A stretch of DNA of 64,000 nucleotides from Thermoproteota archaeon (GTDB taxonomy: Archaea; Korarchaeota; Korarchaeia; Korarchaeales; Korarchaeaceae). Position 1 is the first letter of the stretch. Each line of letters begins with the position of its first letter. The stretch is taken from NCBI GenBank assembly GCA_026986575.1, contig JALSOH010000009.1, forward strand, positions 124,001 to 188,000. The letters run 5' to 3'. The position numbers and the translations under genes are program-made. The notes under the pieces are model-generated. The model had not been told where the DNA came from, searched no databases, and worked only from the letters and a program-made list of their open reading frames with translations. This document shows, piece by piece, positions 42,029 to 49,357 of this stretch.

Positions 42029-42799
42029 CTAAACTTCCCCTCTCAGGAATTTCACCGTTAATTCATGCCTCGGATTGAGGGCTATGGTATCGGTGAGCCC
42101 GAACTCCACCAGCTCGCCCATGTAGATGAATGCTATGTAATCCGAGATCCTCACAGCTTGGTGGGGCGTGTGAGTCACCAACACGATGGTGATCTCCAGA
42201 TCTCTGAGCAGGCTCCTCAGGGCCTCCTCTATCTTGACCGCGTTTACTGGATCTACATTACCGGTTGGCTCATCCAGAAGGAGGAGCTTCGGTTTCAGGG
42301 CGAGAGCTCTAGCCAAGCAGAGCCTCTGCTGCTGACCACCGCTCAACCGGTGCGGTAGGTCGTCCAACCTGCCCTTCACCTCATCCCACAGCATTGCCTT
42401 CTCCAAGGCCCACCTAACCAGCTCATTCAACTCGTCCTTGCTCCTCACCAGACGGTTGAGCTTGGGTCCTATGGCAACGTTCTCGTATATGCTCATATTG
42501 GGGAAGGGATTGGGAGTCTGGAAGACCATTCCCATCAGCCTTCTGACCCTATAAGGGTCCTCGCTATACACGTCGGTCCCGTAAACTAGGACCTTCCCCT
42601 CAACCTTGGACTCGGGTATCAGGTCAATCAACCTGTTTATAGCCCTGAGAAGGGTGGACTTACCTGAGCCGGAGGGACCCATGACTGCCAGTATCCTCCG
42701 CTTCGGGACCTTAAGTCCCACGTTCTTTATGATGTGCTTCCCCCTTATCCAGACATTCAGTCCCTCTATCTGGAGGGCGTAACCCTTCTCCTCTATCAC
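42029..42799 (-). CDS. pstB: Phosphate ABC transporter ATPase
   Basis: 256 residues from the GTG at 42799, which overlaps the pstA stop (GTGA); a longer reading into pstA is not needed. ABC marks: Walker [11 protein letters not shown]-loop [10 protein letters not shown], signature LSGGQQQR, Walker [13 protein letters not shown] and switch H in VTHTP. The PstB-typical ending ([20 protein letters not shown]) is present. Drives high-affinity phosphate uptake with PstS, PstC and PstA; last gene of the minus-strand operon. Confidence 0.94.
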
Positions 42800-43635
42800 A
42801 GGAACACCTCCTCGGTGAACTTCCTCGAGATCAAGAAGATGATGAGGAACATTACGGTGAGAACGAGGGCAGCGCCCCATGCGACCTGATGCATGTTCGC
42901 GTAAGGGGTCTGAGCATAGTCGAATATCAGAAGGGATATCGAGTCCCCGTAGTCCAGCGGACCTAAGGGGATGTTATACCGGTCTCTCCCTAGCGTGAAC
43001 AGGAGAGGCGCGGTCTCGCCCAGCACCTTCGCGAAGCCTATGAGCATGCCCGTCAGTATTCCCCTCCTTGCTATGCCCACCATTATCTCGAAGACCACCT
43101 TGGGCCTGCTCAGCCCCAGCGCGAAACCCGCCTCCCTATAAGTGAAGGGCACCCCCTCTAAGGCCTGTTCGACATAGGTGGTCACGTAGGGTATCATCAT
43201 TATGGCCAGAGCTAGGGAGCCAGCGAGCATGGAGAACCTCCCCATCGGAACCACGAGTATGGCGTAGACGAGCATGCCCACCACGACGGACGGTATCTCC
43301 AGTAGGGCCTTGCTGAGGACCCTGACCATCTTGGCTAGAGGATTGTCGGGGAACTCGACGGCGAATATGGCGGCGAATAAGGAGAGGGGGATCCCCAGAA
43401 GGGAGCTTAGCACTGCTAATAGAAGGGTGCCAGCTAGGGAGGGAGCTATCCCCCCCAGCCCAGCGTTCGGAGCTGGGGGCACATCTAGGAGGAAGTTCGG
43501 CCCGGCCTCCATTATGACTCCGAACCCGTTCCATATGACCGAAAGGAAGACATGGAATACTGGGAGTACTGCAGCTATCGAAAGGATCACCACTAAAACT
43601 AGGAAGACCCTCTCCTTGACCTCCCTAACGTCCAT
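42796..43635 (-). CDS. pstA: Phosphate ABC transporter permease PstA
   Basis: 279 residues, six membrane helices, and the permease EAA-like loop [20 protein letters not shown] followed by [20 protein letters not shown], typical of PstA. Start ATG overlaps the end of pstC by 11 bases; stop overlaps the pstB start. Middle of the pstSCAB operon. Confidence 0.93.
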
Positions 43636-44554
43636 ATAACTCCCTCACCCTCCTCATCATCACGACACCTATTCCGCTGAACAGCATGCCCAAGGCGAGA
43701 AGAACCAAGCTACCAGCGAACATGACGTTTTCCATCAGGGGGAAGAAGCTGGCCTCGGTGAACTGGTTGGCGATTAGTGAAGATATGGTGTATCCGGGAG
43801 CGAAGAGGCAGGGTGAGATGTTGAAGGCGTTTCCCACCACCAAGGCAACAGCTACTGTCTCACTGGCTGCCCTTCCAAGCCCTAGGAGAACGGCGGCTAT
43901 TATGGCTGGCCTTATGAGTGAGACCATTATCCTGAAGTACTCATATCTAGTGGCCCCGAGAGACAGGGCCGCCTCCCTGTAGGTGCGAGGCACCTGCCTG
44001 TAGGCCTCCTTGATCACCCCGTGCATGAATGGAATTATCATTACCGCCAGTAAAAGCCCGGCTGCCAAGAATGAGGCGCCACTCAGGGGATCGCAAGCGA
44101 ACGGGGGGATGAAGTCGAGGTGCTCGTGTAGCGGCGACATGACCCAACTCCTTAAAATGGGAACCATCACCTCCAACCCCCAGAGCCCGTAGATTATCGT
44201 GGGTAGACCAGCCATGAGGTCTATCACCGAGGAGAAGAACTCTTTGATCCTGTAGGGAGCCATCTCCTCCATGAAGAAGACGGTAGCGACGGAGAGGGGC
44301 AAAGCTACTGCAGCGGCTATCAGCGAGGTGACTAGGGTCCCGTAGAGGGGTGCCAGTAGGCCGTACTTCACGAACTCCACCCCCCTCTCTGACGGCTTCC
44401 ACACATTCTCGGTGAAGAGGGAGATGCCGAACCTCTCAAGAGCCGGCCATGACTCGTAGGCCAGTACGTAAGCCAGAAGTGCGAATAGAGCGAATATTAC
44501 CGCGGCGAAGGGAAGCAGGGTGAGGAAGAATCCCCTGTCCACCTTGGGAATCAT
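43625..44554 (-). CDS. pstC: Phosphate ABC transporter permease PstC
   Basis: 309 residues, six membrane helices. PstC phrases: SVIDLMAGLPTIIYGLWGL, the EAA loop VPRTYREAALSLGATRYEYF and LLGLGRAASETVAVALVVGN. Starts 16 bases after pstS, overlaps pstA. Confidence 0.93.
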   Translation of the reverse strand: MIPKVDRGFFLTLLPFAAVIFALFALLAYVLAYESWPALERFGISLFTENVWKPSERGVEFVKYGLLAPLYGTLVTSLIAAAVALPLSVATVFFMEEMAPYRIKEFFSSVIDLMAGLPTIIYGLWGLEVMVPILRSWVMSPLHEHLDFIPPFACDPLSGASFLAAGLLLAVMIIPFMHGVIKEAYRQVPRTYREAALSLGATRYEYFRIMVSLIRPAIIAAVLLGLGRAASETVAVALVVGNAFNISPCLFAPGYTISSLIANQFTEASFFPLMENVMFAGSLVLLALGMLFSGIGVVMMRRVRELYGR

Positions 44555-44570
44555 TCGATCACCCCCGAAT

Positions 44571-45656
44571 TCACGGTTTTATCAGTCCCACGGCCTTCAG
44601 GTTCACCGACCTCAGTTCGGGCGGTATGGGGGCGTACCCCTCAGCTATCAGCTCCTGTCCCTCAGTGTTCACGAACCTCACGAACCCCCTGATGGCTTCC
44701 GCCTTCTCTCCGTAATGAGTCCAGAACATCAGGTGGACGAAGGAAGTCAGGGGGTAGGATTCCTCGCCGGGGGCGTAGACCACGGCATCTAGGTCGAGGC
44801 TGAAATCGTCAAGGGGACTCTTGGGGAGGAGGGGAAATGCTCTCCTCGCGGCCTCAGTGATCGATTGGGGAGAGGGGGTGACGAAGTTCCCCTCGGCGTT
44901 TCTCACCGACGCCATAGGGAGGTCGTTCTCTAGGGCGTAGGAGAGCTCCACGTAGCCCAGCGAGTAGGGGGTATTCATGATAACCTGAGTCACTCCCTGA
45001 TTTCCCTTAGCCCCTACGCCGTTCCCTCTGGAGTCGACAGGCCATTCCACGCTCTTCCCCACAAGATCGAGGGGCCAGTCTCGGGGGGATGCCTTGTGAA
45101 GGAAGAAGGTGAAGATGTTGGTGGTTCCGCTCGAGTCAGACCTGTGGACAGCGATTATCTCCTTATGGGGCAGCTTCATTGCTGGATTGAGCTCCCTCAT
45201 CAAAGGATCGTCCCAGTACCTCACCTCCCCCTTGTAGATCCTTGCCAGCACTTTGCCATCGAGTCTTAGCTGTCCCTCGACGGGCAGGTTGTAGGTGATC
45301 ACCACGGCCCCGAGCACCACCGGCATCTGCAGCACCCGACCCCTGTACCTGAGCCAGAGGTCTCTGGTGAGAGGGGGATCGCTTGCCGCGAAGTCAACCA
45401 GTTTGGAGAGGAACTGCTTCTGGCCCGTACCGCTCCCAGTCGGATTGTAGTTTAGGGTAACCCAGGGATGCTCTTCCGTGAATTTAGGTATCCAGATAGA
45501 CATCTGAGGGTAGATGAAGCTGGAGCCGGAGCCGAGGATCGATACCTCCTCGCTGTTCCCTTGAACGGTCGTGCCCACGAGCCCGAGGACCACCCAAAGG
45601 ACGAATATGAGGGGACCCATGGAGGCCAGCAAGGGTGCTGAGATCCTCAGCTCCAT
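44571..45656 (-). CDS. pstS: Phosphate-binding protein PstS
   Basis: 361 residues. N-terminal signal/anchor (about 10-33), then the phosphate-binding fold with its marks: SGSSFIYPQMSIWIPKF, YNPTGSGTGQKQFL, FAASDPPLT, VHRSDSSGTTNIFTFFL and GNQGVTQVIMNTPYSLGYVE. Exported, membrane-anchored substrate receptor and first gene of pstSCAB. Minus-strand TATA-like TTTATAGTTT lies at 45691-45700. Divergent from the AbrB-PhoU gene. Confidence 0.94.
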   Translation of the reverse strand: MELRISAPLLASMGPLIFVLWVVLGLVGTTVQGNSEEVSILGSGSSFIYPQMSIWIPKFTEEHPWVTLNYNPTGSGTGQKQFLSKLVDFAASDPPLTRDLWLRYRGRVLQMPVVLGAVVITYNLPVEGQLRLDGKVLARIYKGEVRYWDDPLMRELNPAMKLPHKEIIAVHRSDSSGTTNIFTFFLHKASPRDWPLDLVGKSVEWPVDSRGNGVGAKGNQGVTQVIMNTPYSLGYVELSYALENDLPMASVRNAEGNFVTPSPQSITEAARRAFPLLPKSPLDDFSLDLDAVVYAPGEESYPLTSFVHLMFWTHYGEKAEAIRGFVRFVNTEGQELIAEGYAPIPPELRSVNLKAVGLIKP

Positions 45657-45778: not shown

Positions 45779-46789
45779 ATGGCCCAGCCTAGGAGCGTTC
45801 AGGTGACGGGGCGTTCCACCTACATAATCTCCCTCCCTAAGGAGTGGGCGAGGAGTGTCGGGATAGGAAAGGGATCCACCGTTTATTTGGAGGTACTGGC
45901 GGACGGTTCTTTGAGGATCTCGCCCTCACCGAGCGGTAGGAGGGGACAACTGACCAAGGTAATTGACGCCTCCAAGTATGGGGATGTGAGCAGCCTGATG
46001 AGGGAGATAATCTCTCACTACTTGGCCGGATACAACTCCATTAGGATAGAGTACGGGGCAGAGCGGAAGGACTTGGCCGAGAGGGTGAAGGAGATAATTG
46101 AGAGCAGTATCTTGGGATTCAGCGTCCTCGAGGGAACCGCAACTTCGATGACCTTCTACGCGGTCCTCGATCCCTCCTCGATGAGCTTGGACGATGCCGC
46201 ATCGAAGCTCGTGTCCGATGCCCTCCACATGCTGGAGGACACGCTCCGGGGCATGAGGGAAAGGGATAGCAGCCTCCTTGAGGGTGTGATCAGGCAGGAC
46301 CAGCTCGTGGACAAGTTGTACTTGCTCGTCGCCAAGCAGCTGACCATAGCCCTGATGAATCCCGTCAATGTGAGGGACTTCGGTCTCGAAACTCCTGCTG
46401 AGGCACCTCACCTCTTCCTAGCTGCGAAGAGCGTTGAGAGGATCGCGGATCATGCGACGATAGTAGCGAGAAACACGATGGATCTCATCCTCGAAGGCGG
46501 TGAAATACCTCCAAACATCTTGGACTCACTGGAGGAGGCTATCGAGCTCTTCAGGGACGTCTCCTCAGCTCTAACTAGCCCGAACAAGGAGAAGGCTGAG
46601 GAGGTAGCTAAGCTAATTGAGAGGGTGGGTAGGGGCCCGAGCGCCTGGGAGGAGAGGTACGCAGATCCCAGACTTTACGCGATAGTGGAGAGCATTGGAC
46701 GGATATTCGGTTACAGCTTGGACATAGCCGAGGCAATAATAGATGTCTCCACTGTCAGAGAAGCAGCTAGGATGCTAAGGGGCCGTTAA
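45779..46789 (+). CDS. AbrB-PhoU phosphate regulator
   Basis: 336 residues. The N-terminal swapped-hairpin AbrB DNA-binding domain (about 4-50: RSVQVTGRSTYIISLPKEWA, GIGKGSTVYLEVLADGSLRI) is fused to PhoU-like helical domains (about 60-335, with VSDALHMLEDTLRGM and KSVERIADHATIVARNTMDL). Archaeal proteins of this build sit by pst genes and are taken to repress them when phosphate is sufficient. Divergent from pstS, which fits. Confidence 0.88.
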   Translation: MAQPRSVQVTGRSTYIISLPKEWARSVGIGKGSTVYLEVLADGSLRISPSPSGRRGQLTKVIDASKYGDVSSLMREIISHYLAGYNSIRIEYGAERKDLAERVKEIIESSILGFSVLEGTATSMTFYAVLDPSSMSLDDAASKLVSDALHMLEDTLRGMRERDSSLLEGVIRQDQLVDKLYLLVAKQLTIALMNPVNVRDFGLETPAEAPHLFLAAKSVERIADHATIVARNTMDLILEGGEIPPNILDSLEEAIELFRDVSSALTSPNKEKAEEVAKLIERVGRGPSAWEERYADPRLYAIVESIGRIFGYSLDIAEAIIDVSTVREAARMLRGR

Positions 46790-47217
46790 AGGAGTCTCCT
46801 TACCCTCTCAGCTATTCTCTCTGAGACCTTCCTGTAAGGCTCTGGATCACCTTCCTCATCCCACTTAACTCCGGGACACGAGAGGGAGACTAGGATGAAG
46901 TCCTCACCCACTATGAAGGGATACCTCCGGCAGGTGTCGGGACGGTGTTCGTAAGCGACGCAGAGATTTCCCTCTAGAAAGATGCAGGAACCGTCCTCCT
47001 TCATCCTCATCTTGTAAGGCGCGCCAGTAAGCTCCCTCTCCAGATCTGTCGTGGGCTCATAGAAGTCTCGGTAACCTGCCTCTTCCAACCTCCTTACATC
47101 CTCCTCGTAAAGGACTATCACCCTGTTCCTGCAGCAGTCCCCGCACAGCGTGCAGACAAAGCCTGGCATTTTATCCACTTTAACGTAGTCGGAGACCACC
47201 ACTTCCACGGGCATCAC
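46786..47217 (-). CDS. YkgJ-like cysteine-cluster protein
   Basis: 143 residues. Zinc or iron-sulfur cysteine pattern: CTLCGDCC (about 22-29), then CIFLEGNLC, RPDTCRRYPF and a late SCPG, as in YkgJ/UPF0153 proteins of unknown role. The reading overlaps the SatD-like gene end by 38 bases; an ATG just before GFVCTLC would remove the overlap. Converges with the AbrB-PhoU gene (4-base overlap). Confidence 0.82.
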   Translation of the reverse strand: MMPVEVVVSDYVKVDKMPGFVCTLCGDCCRNRVIVLYEEDVRRLEEAGYRDFYEPTTDLERELTGAPYKMRMKEDGSCIFLEGNLCVAYEHRPDTCRRYPFIVGEDFILVSLSCPGVKWDEEGDPEPYRKVSERIAERVRRLL

Positions 47218-47824
47218 CCAGCAGGCGGGAGATGACGAAACACCCAGTGCTCCTGAGGGTCTTGCTCACGTTCCCCTTGCTTACCCCATACCTCCTGGCT
47301 ATCACCTCTATCTTATCCCCGAACCATATCCTCCTGAAGCAGTAGGCGACCCTCTTCTCCGGCATCTCCGCGAGCACGGCCATGGAGAGGGCCGCCACGT
47401 ATATATTCCTCTCGTCGTTGAGATCGGCACCCTCCCCCACCTCCAGATTCAGCACTGAAACCCTACTCCTCTTCGAGCTCAGCTTCTCCAAGGCGGATCT
47501 AGCGCTCCAGAAGGCGGGACCGTCGCACTCGTCCGCGAACTCCCTGATGAGGTGCACGCTCCCGGCCCCCAGCCCCACCCTGAACCTGAGATTCGAGGCG
47601 AGGGAGTAGTGGAAGAAGAAGGTGAGTGGACGCCAGTCCTTGGTCAGGAATTCGACGCTATCTCCAGCGGTGAGCGCCGGTCTGGCAGCCAGCTCCCGAC
47701 TCCATCTCCCCTCCACTAGGTTCATACCACTCCTTATAATCTCCCTGATCTCCTCAGCCCTATCGGACAGCTCCCTAGATCTGATGAGGTCGAAAATGGC
47801 AGCTAGCAACCCAACCTCCCCCAT
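47180..47824 (-). CDS. SatD-like protein with C-terminal helix-turn-helix
   Basis: 214 residues from the ATG at 47824, overlapping the upstream membrane gene. SatD-family marks: FDLIRSRELSDR (11-22), TAGDSVEFL (52-60), RVGLGAGS (82-89) and DGPAFWSARSALE (101-113). A C-terminal helix-turn-helix (about 168-195, IEVIARRYGVSKGNVSKTL) would bind DNA. SatD is known from a Streptococcus acid-stress operon, without an assigned reaction. The start at 47896 would add a tail that lies within the upstream gene and is unlikely. Confidence 0.65.
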   Translation of the reverse strand: MGEVGLLAAIFDLIRSRELSDRAEEIREIIRSGMNLVEGRWSRELAARPALTAGDSVEFLTKDWRPLTFFFHYSLASNLRFRVGLGAGSVHLIREFADECDGPAFWSARSALEKLSSKRSRVSVLNLEVGEGADLNDERNIYVAALSMAVLAEMPEKRVAYCFRRIWFGDKIEVIARRYGVSKGNVSKTLRSTGCFVISRLLGDARGSGGLRLR

Positions 47825-48273
47825 ATCATGTGGAGGGAGAGCCATGAAAGGGCTATCCCGCTCGTGAGACTGAAGAACGTCCCGATTATGTACCATTCAG
47901 CCTCCATTGTCCTCCTGTCGAATCTGAACAGGGCTTTCGCGGCAACTACAATGGCGAGAGAGCTGAGAGCATCTTTCACGGGCAGCAAGCAGTTGGCACT
48001 CATGAGGAAGAGGAGGAATACGAAGGACCTCTCCATCACGCCTATCACAGCACCACCGTGGAAACCCTCCTCGCCGCCTCCCGATCGGATCCTCCTTCCC
48101 AACTCGGATATAAGGCTGTGAGGGAGCAATAAGACGCTGAGATAGGCGAGTAGATGCGAAGCGATCATTCGGGGTTCCACAATGGGAGCTCCTTGGAACA
48201 GGAGTAAGAGAGCTAGTGAGAGGAGACCAGCGAACAGGATCAAGACTTTCCGTACCTGAGCCTCGAGACCCAT
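47803..48273 (-). CDS. Membrane protein partner of the SatD-like gene
   Basis: 156 residues with four hydrophobic segments (about 10-28, 36-55, 80-110, 128-150) and a short basic, glycine-rich loop. No family recognised with certainty. Bacterial satD genes are also paired with a small membrane protein gene. It overlaps the SatD-like start by 22 bases and lies directly behind the tandem palindromes, so it is probably the first gene of the operon. Confidence 0.6.
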   Translation of the reverse strand: MGLEAQVRKVLILFAGLLSLALLLLFQGAPIVEPRMIASHLLAYLSVLLLPHSLISELGRRIRSGGGEEGFHGGAVIGVMERSFVFLLFLMSANCLLPVKDALSSLAIVVAAKALFRFDRRTMEAEWYIIGTFFSLTSGIALSWLSLHMIWGRLGC

Positions 48274-48288
48274 GCCGCGTCATCTACC

Positions 48289-48367
48289 TGAGTTTACTTA
48301 AAAGGTAAACTGAGGACTGAGTTTACTTAAAAGGTAAACTGAGGACGAGGTTCACCTCGCAGGTGAA
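48289..48367. promoter_or_regulatory. Tandem palindromic operator between divergent genes
   Basis: Two identical 29-base direct repeats (48289-48317 and 48318-48346), each holding the near-palindrome GTTTACTT-AAA-AGGTAAAC. They are followed by a third, related perfect palindrome, TTCACCT-CGC-AGGTGAA (48351-48367). All three share the plan of 7-8 base arms around 3 bases. They lie 16 bases from the membrane gene start (minus) and 43 bases from the AstE/AspA-like gene start (plus), so they could control both. Confidence 0.75.
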
Positions 48368-48409
48368 ATCGCGGGCAGCCTTATTACAAACACCCGGTAC
48401 TCGTCCCCT

Positions 48410-49357
48410 ATGGAGCTTGAGAAGGAGAGATTGACCGTCGGTCACAGGCCCGATGGCTCCGAGGTGAACCTCCCGGTCGTCAGGGTGCAGGGGTCTTCCA
48501 GAGGACCTAGGCTGCTCATCACACTGAGCGTCCACGGGGACGAGATCACGGGTCACAAATCGGTGTGGTACCTCCTAGATCACCTCAGAAAGGTGACCGA
48601 CCTCAAGGGAGAGCTAACCATCATCTCCTTGGTCAACGTTGAGGGCTTCAACTACTCCATCAGGGGCTTCCCCTACTCCACCTTAGACCTGAACAGGATG
48701 TTTCCTGGAGATGAGAGGGGCTCTCTGTCCGAACGAATCACCGCTAGGATCTGGTCCCTAGCCTCTAAGGCCGACTTCGTCCTCGACGTACACACCGCGG
48801 GCCTATGCGTTCCCTTCGTCCTGATACATCCGGCCGAGCCCCTCATAAGGGACTTCATGGAGGATGTGGCCTACGCCAGCGGCCTGACCCCCCTCTACAA
48901 TTACGATCCCGAGCTCTACGACAGGATAGGGTTGGGGAAGTCACTGAGCGGCACCTCGGTCAAGAACGGCACTCCAGCGCTCACTTTAGAGCTGCCGGGG
49001 TTCGTTGGGATAGACCAGCTGGGTGCCAGGGCGGGCTTCATAGCCCTGAAGAACGTGATGGTCAAGCTGGGGATGCTGGATGGGGATTACGAGGAGGTGG
49101 ACTTCCTTCCGGTGATCAGGAGGAGGGGGATGAAGAGGGTGAAGGTGAGCGCGGAGTCGGCTGGTCTCCTCGACTACACCGTCGAGCTAGGGGAGGAGGT
49201 ATTCGAGGGGCAGCTCTTGGCCAGGGTGAGGGATCCATTCGGGGATGCGCTGGAAGAGGTCAGGGCCCCTAGAGACGGCTTCGTAGTTCAGATAAATGGA
49301 TTTTACAGGACCTTCACCGGTGGCAAGGTGGCGACCTTGGCGGTGGAGGCCGGCTGA
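48410..49357 (+). CDS. Succinylglutamate desuccinylase/aspartoacylase-family hydrolase
   Basis: 315 residues. Zinc peptidase-like fold with HGDE (H42, E45) and H128 in LDVHT as metal ligands; LDLNRMFPG (92-100) supplies the substrate-binding Asn-Arg. The C-terminal part (about 225-310) is a beta-rich lid. Family members deacylate N-acylated amino acids; the substrate is not readable. Start ATG at 48410 follows the tandem palindromes. Confidence 0.85.
   Translation: MELEKERLTVGHRPDGSEVNLPVVRVQGSSRGPRLLITLSVHGDEITGHKSVWYLLDHLRKVTDLKGELTIISLVNVEGFNYSIRGFPYSTLDLNRMFPGDERGSLSERITARIWSLASKADFVLDVHTAGLCVPFVLIHPAEPLIRDFMEDVAYASGLTPLYNYDPELYDRIGLGKSLSGTSVKNGTPALTLELPGFVGIDQLGARAGFIALKNVMVKLGMLDGDYEEVDFLPVIRRRGMKRVKVSAESAGLLDYTVELGEEVFEGQLLARVRDPFGDALEEVRAPRDGFVVQINGFYRTFTGGKVATLAVEAG

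Follow-up and report, generated by a model that had tools for sequence, protein, structure and literature searches.

A tandem-dyad array upstream of archaeal satD operons is a candidate operator for autorepression by SatD

An array of palindromic sites lies upstream of a small operon for a membrane protein and a SatD-family protein in the window (the whole 64,000-nucleotide stretch of DNA analysed here), and sites of the same design accompany satD in other genomes and on plasmids. Judged by this distribution, the array is a genuine operator whose conservation reaches well past close relatives. It is quite likely that SatD itself occupies the array in a cooperative manner and represses the membrane-protein/satD operon that encodes it; we infer the parts of this reading (SatD as the binder, the cooperativity, the repression and the signal) from comparison of sequences. 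The conserved operator architecture is new and suggests a function for SatD, a member of an uncharacterised family that is annotated by its family name alone: the array predicts that SatD is a DNA-binding autoregulator. The open literature that was searched contains no description of SatD as a regulator, or of an operator for the SatD family.

The array consists of three 19-bp dyads that start at 48292, 48321 and 48350, exactly 29 bp from start to start. Dyad 1 (48292-48310), which is proximal to the membrane-protein/satD operon, and dyad 2 (48321-48339) have the identical sequence GTTTACTTAAAAGGTAAAC, which follows a 7-3-7 plan apart from one G/T mismatch and has an outer G-C pair in addition. 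Dyad 3 (48350-48368), on the side of the AstE-like gene, is the variant GTTCACCTCGCAGGTGAAA; it contains a perfect 7-3-7 palindrome, TTCACCT-CGC-AGGTGAA, at 48351-48367, and has counterparts in genomes G008 and G015. Two identical tandem 29-bp units, CTGAGTTTACTTAAAAGGTAAACTGAGGA, occupy 48288-48316 and 48317-48345, each made up of a dyad and a 10-bp linker. Because dyads 1 and 2 are identical including their linkers, at least one recent duplication or conversion of a 29-bp unit is likely. An earlier note on this DNA had described two identical 29-base units and a variant 7-3-7 palindrome at this place, and all of these were found; the exact 29-bp register of dyad 3 is a further detail that it did not contain. 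The sequence of dyad 3 (48347-48362) also reappears as a 16-bp inverted match (GAGGTGAACCTC) at 48457-48472, within the AstE-like coding region.

How specific is the palindrome to this place? When up to three mismatches were allowed, the pattern gave six matches in the window, which are three places read on both strands; with the same pattern, shuffled windows gave a mean of 0.5 matches and none of 100 shuffles reached six. A search of the whole 1.9-Mb archaeal genome for similar sites, as the earlier note had proposed, limited the zero-mismatch palindrome to dyads 1 and 2. The remaining genome matches, dyad 3 included, carry three mismatches, and their number is near background (17, versus 10 in a reversed-pattern control); no second comparable array is present elsewhere in this genome. 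A genome-wide regulon was rejected, since there is no other perfect site in the genome and the remaining matches are close to background.

The first gene after the array encodes a small membrane protein of 156 aa (47803-48273, minus strand), the conserved partner of SatD. It is overlapped by satD, the second gene of the minus-strand unit (47180-47824, with a likely ATG at 47824 in an ORF that opens at 47896), whose product has a C-terminal helix-turn-helix (HTH) and is the proposed binder of the array. The gene for a CxxCxxCC (YkgJ-like) protein (46786-47217, minus strand) overlaps the end of satD and is the third gene of a probable operon in the closest relatives only. The divergent neighbour, on the other side of the array, is an AstE/AspA-like deacylase gene (48410-49357, plus strand; AstE_AspA_cat, E=1e-18). 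The SatD-like and AstE/AspA-like names previously given to the neighbours were right, but the gene that adjoins the array is that of the membrane protein, with satD in second place. The profile of this membrane protein matches the partners of other SatDs (hhalign probability 97.5, E=7.5e-12), and the window SatD, like these others, is encoded together with a small membrane partner. A DUF3307 assignment for the window protein was rejected, as a Pfam search gave no match, but profile comparison shows homology to the other SatD partners; in the Halorientalis partner, the same domain is located after a DUF3307 domain.

Both sides of the array have promoter-like sequences. The TATA-like element TTTTAAGT lies on the minus strand at 48296-48303, inside dyad 1, with the ATG at 48273 about 26 bp downstream. 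On the plus strand, the TATA-like element TTATTACA (48381-48388) lies about 26 bp before the ATG of the AstE-like gene at 48410 and is also found in G003, G008 and G015. Both divergent starts are probably leaderless. The array, located between the two start sites, is therefore probably untranscribed, which argues against an RNA hairpin.

Do the sites follow satD in related genomes? SatD homologues are encoded in 10 of the 24 genomes of the window's family. Perfect sites (GTTTACYTNNNARGTAAAC) occur in eight of the 24, all with satD and always upstream of the membrane-protein/satD pair; in the family genomes that lack SatD there is no perfect site, and the best matches carry at least two mismatches. 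A 48-bp tandem pattern (a pair of GTTWAC-N7-GTWAAC dyads with a 10-bp linker) was found at satD loci only, in seven family genomes, and the reversed control gave none. The genome G017 has two clear diverged dyads, 29 bp apart, with two and three mismatches to GTTTACYTNNNARGTAAAC and none to GTTWAC-N7-GTWAAC, while in G005 satD is interrupted by a contig end. The absence of the sites from close relatives, which the earlier note had named as grounds for doubt, was not observed: in this family, no satD whose upstream region is present lacks the sites. As would be expected of an HTH autorepressor with a tandem-dyad operator, the sites are conserved, specific to this operon and located in the promoter of the proposed regulator's own operon. 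Three loci of the family have a single dyad only, so the full array appears to be dispensable in some places.

Two genomes of the family show variations of this arrangement. In G002, both paralogous satD loci (L046 and L047) have their own GTTTAC-type dyads; given the identical site types, the two loci could cross-regulate. G015 has one unit fewer than the window, and its operon (L017/L044) is decaying: the membrane-protein gene carries a frameshift and has been fused by a deletion to a shortened satD. Despite this decay, one perfect dyad and a variant dyad are kept in the 29-bp register.

The register extends well beyond the family. In a family of another archaeal phylum (f42, probably Asgard archaea), the arrays are built of GTTWAC-N7-GTWAAC dyads, often with three sites, and at 12 of 14 satD loci the best spacing, out of 19-60 bp tried freely, was 29 or 58 bp. 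Pairs of similar dyads at a distance of 20-40 bp were also sought by a motif-free scan of 36 satD loci and of the upstream regions of 292 other ORFs. At 27 of the satD loci, the spacing that it selected was 28 or 29 bp; the loci are related to each other, so that the counts are not independent. Scores of at least 18 among the 292 regions all came from satD arrays viewed from a neighbouring ORF or from a duplicate locus, and no promoter unconnected with satD reached this score in the scan. Haloarchaeal and Sphingomonas plasmids carry the same tandem-dyad architecture at satD. The Sphingomonas plasmid has a triple 28-bp array with half-sites TTAGCCC/TTACCCC, and the half-site is GTTCGCC on the Halorientalis and Haloplanus plasmids, which have a second, downstream dyad group as well. 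Elsewhere, it is TAAACC at G434 and G602, and TACAACC at G352 and on a Natronosalvus plasmid. Linkers and parts of the half-sites vary between lineages, and the register is therefore unlikely to be the leftover of one duplication. Convincing tandem dyads were found neither at two of the f42 loci, nor at most f130 and most f141 loci, nor at the satD loci of Fusobacterium and Arthrobacter.

Which part of SatD would recognise these sites? The C-terminus has weak Pfam/NCBIfam matches to sigma-70 region 4, YlxM and KorA, and the SatD family profile clearly matches the solved HTH structures of the UPF0122/YlxM type (1xsv, E=8e-7; 1s7o, E=8e-6); the family therefore has a C-terminal helix-turn-helix. 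The likeness to UPF0122/YlxM, to sigma-70 region 4 type HTH proteins and to the KorA/TrfB repressors is one of the HTH only, as these proteins are without the N-terminal SatD domain. In the closest relatives of the window SatD, the helix SKGNVSK does not vary. Helices of the SKGNVSK type go with GTTWAC half-sites, SKQAISK (G434 and G602) goes with TAAACC, and two distant SatDs that both have the helix QQAVSK (G352 and Natronosalvus) have the half-site TACAACC in common. Thus, the sequence of the dyads seems to vary with the recognition helix of SatD, a correspondence that was read by eye from a handful of groups rather than by a formal covariation test. If it holds, the natural variation in helix and half-site offers a ready specificity code.

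The N-terminal domain has as its invariants D10, GD51-52 and DG100-101. These D, GD(S/E) and DG motifs resemble the palm of class III cyclases and GGDEF proteins, and the domain is possibly a nucleotide sensor or an enzyme, although searches of Pfam and the PDB gave no cyclase match for it. An AlphaFold model of SatD, built from a six-sequence alignment, has a mean pLDDT of 45 and is too poor for dimer geometry or fold comparison. A viral origin of SatD was rejected, as no relative was found in viral contigs or phage records, and a role as a defence system was rejected because PADLOC gave no match.

The strict co-occurrence of sites and satD, the correspondence between helix and half-site, and the HTH itself make SatD the most likely binder. 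A SatD dimer would sit on each dyad through its C-terminal HTH, and neighbouring dimers would be locked in the 29-bp register (a 19-bp dyad plus a 10-bp linker) and bind cooperatively. The bound dimers would cover the TATA box and BRE, so that TBP and TFB would be blocked and the operon repressed, while the upstream dyads would add cooperative affinity. The promoters are consistent with such occlusion. In f42, and in several members of the window's family, TTATAA or TTTATA comes immediately after the right half-site of the proximal dyad, which puts this half-site over the BRE; the window's subgroup has its proximal dyad displaced by about 11 bp, with the TATA-like element inside it. With the proximal dyad over TATA and BRE, its occupation should block TBP and TFB. 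The N-terminal domain would be the likely sensor that relieves repression, with a signal that is perhaps a nucleotide or the state of the membrane partner. The array may also act on the adjoining divergent AstE-like promoter at the four loci that have this arrangement. Besides the loci with a single dyad or with no convincing tandem dyads, a further point counts against the autorepression reading: a 29-bp register corresponds to about 2.8 helical turns, and spacing on the same face of the helix is not obvious. The broader proposal that SatD and its membrane partner are a widespread two-gene control module, in which a cyclase-like, nucleotide-binding N-domain acts as the sensor and a membrane protein that would do harm if left unregulated is repressed via a family-wide 28-29-bp tandem-dyad operator, is possible but rather doubtful.

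Could the array belong to the AstE-like gene instead? AstE is the divergent neighbour at just four loci, the array is kept at L019, L020 and L039, where AstE is not adjacent, and no dyads accompany the four AstE homologues that are encoded away from satD. AstE was rejected as the owner of the array, which stays with satD and does not occur at AstE genes that have no satD beside them. The earlier note had the array control both divergent transcripts; as a general feature this does not hold, since satD loci keep the array when AstE is located elsewhere or missing. In the window, an effect on the AstE-like promoter is possible, because the promoters on either side of the array are close together. 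A true bidirectional operator, with the AstE-like deacylase as its main physiological output, would fit the four divergent loci and the position of dyad 3 near the AstE TATA-like element; the arrays that have no AstE neighbour and the AstE homologues that have no sites make it unlikely.

The remaining alternatives concern what acts on the array, and how. SatD could be an activator or a dual regulator of its operon that recruits TBP and TFB. In most lineages other than that of the window the proximal dyad immediately precedes the TATA-like element, a position at which archaeal activators can bind as well, with further dyads farther upstream, and an activator just upstream of the BRE would leave similar traces. 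However, the position is an occluding one in the window and its closest relatives, where the TATA-like element is inside the proximal dyad, and in the haloarchaeal relatives, where a dyad ends just before the start codon. Activation is thus a weaker rival than autorepression, and we regard it as quite unlikely. That some other local or global regulator uses the array is very unlikely. SatD binding is a prediction, and the N-domain could be enzymatic and the HTH could have a different target, but the sites are restricted to the promoters of satD and accompany it in different genomes, in different phyla and on plasmids, and inspection of the neighbourhoods found no other HTH gene common to satD loci. 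Comparison of the loci gives good support to the earlier proposal of one cooperative regulator, probably the SatD-like HTH protein: the sites go with satD rather than with AstE, different phyla share the 28-29-bp register, and half-sites seem to differ in step with the SatD helix. A neutral tandem duplication, or a structural element such as a cruciform or RNA hairpin, would account for the identical units of the window and for the missing unit in G015. It would not account for a register and dyad symmetry that are kept in two phyla in spite of changed linkers and even changed half-sites; with the array upstream of both probable leaderless starts and probably untranscribed, such an origin is extremely improbable.

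Tandem-operator autorepressors have dyads over the promoter of their own operon, in two to three copies and a fixed register. The SatD array likewise has two to three dyads in a fixed register at the promoter of its own operon. It differs from other autorepressors in that its 28-29-bp register is kept from archaea to an alphaproteobacterial plasmid while the half-sites differ. Dyads of 19-20 bp in a 28-29-bp register therefore provide an architecture by which the module might be found elsewhere.

The SatD family (PF16264) is named from the sat operon of Streptococcus mutans, and the window protein matches its profile above the Pfam cut-off (37.2 bits versus 29, E=3e-9). Like the SatD-DUF3307 pairs of Halorientalis and Haloplanus, it is encoded beside a membrane protein; the archaeal SatDs closest to it have the membrane-protein gene first and GDS(I/V)E in place of the GDEFQG motif. 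The literature that was searched links satD only to acid tolerance and, for S. pyogenes, reports satD to be accessory yet apparently essential (PMC11323703). If the autorepression reading is true, an autorepressor of a harmful partner would account for both properties of the S. pyogenes gene, a speculative explanation that requires the same partner and operator design there.

Three further observations concern particular loci. On the Halorientalis and Haloplanus plasmids (L125 and L126), dyads lie at -127/-98 and near -51/-22 before satD, and the last dyad ends just before the satD start codon. In the SatD-less genome G407, a tandem-dyad match with two mismatches lies upstream of a flavodoxin-like gene (L097, near 1501-1548); it is possibly a chance match or another target, and the reversed control also matched in two genomes. 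Beside the satD operon of the window, a gene for a MazE/AbrB-PhoU fusion protein (45779-46789) is divergent to a Pst-type phosphate transporter (42796-45656), and this neighbourhood is retained in L016 and L017.
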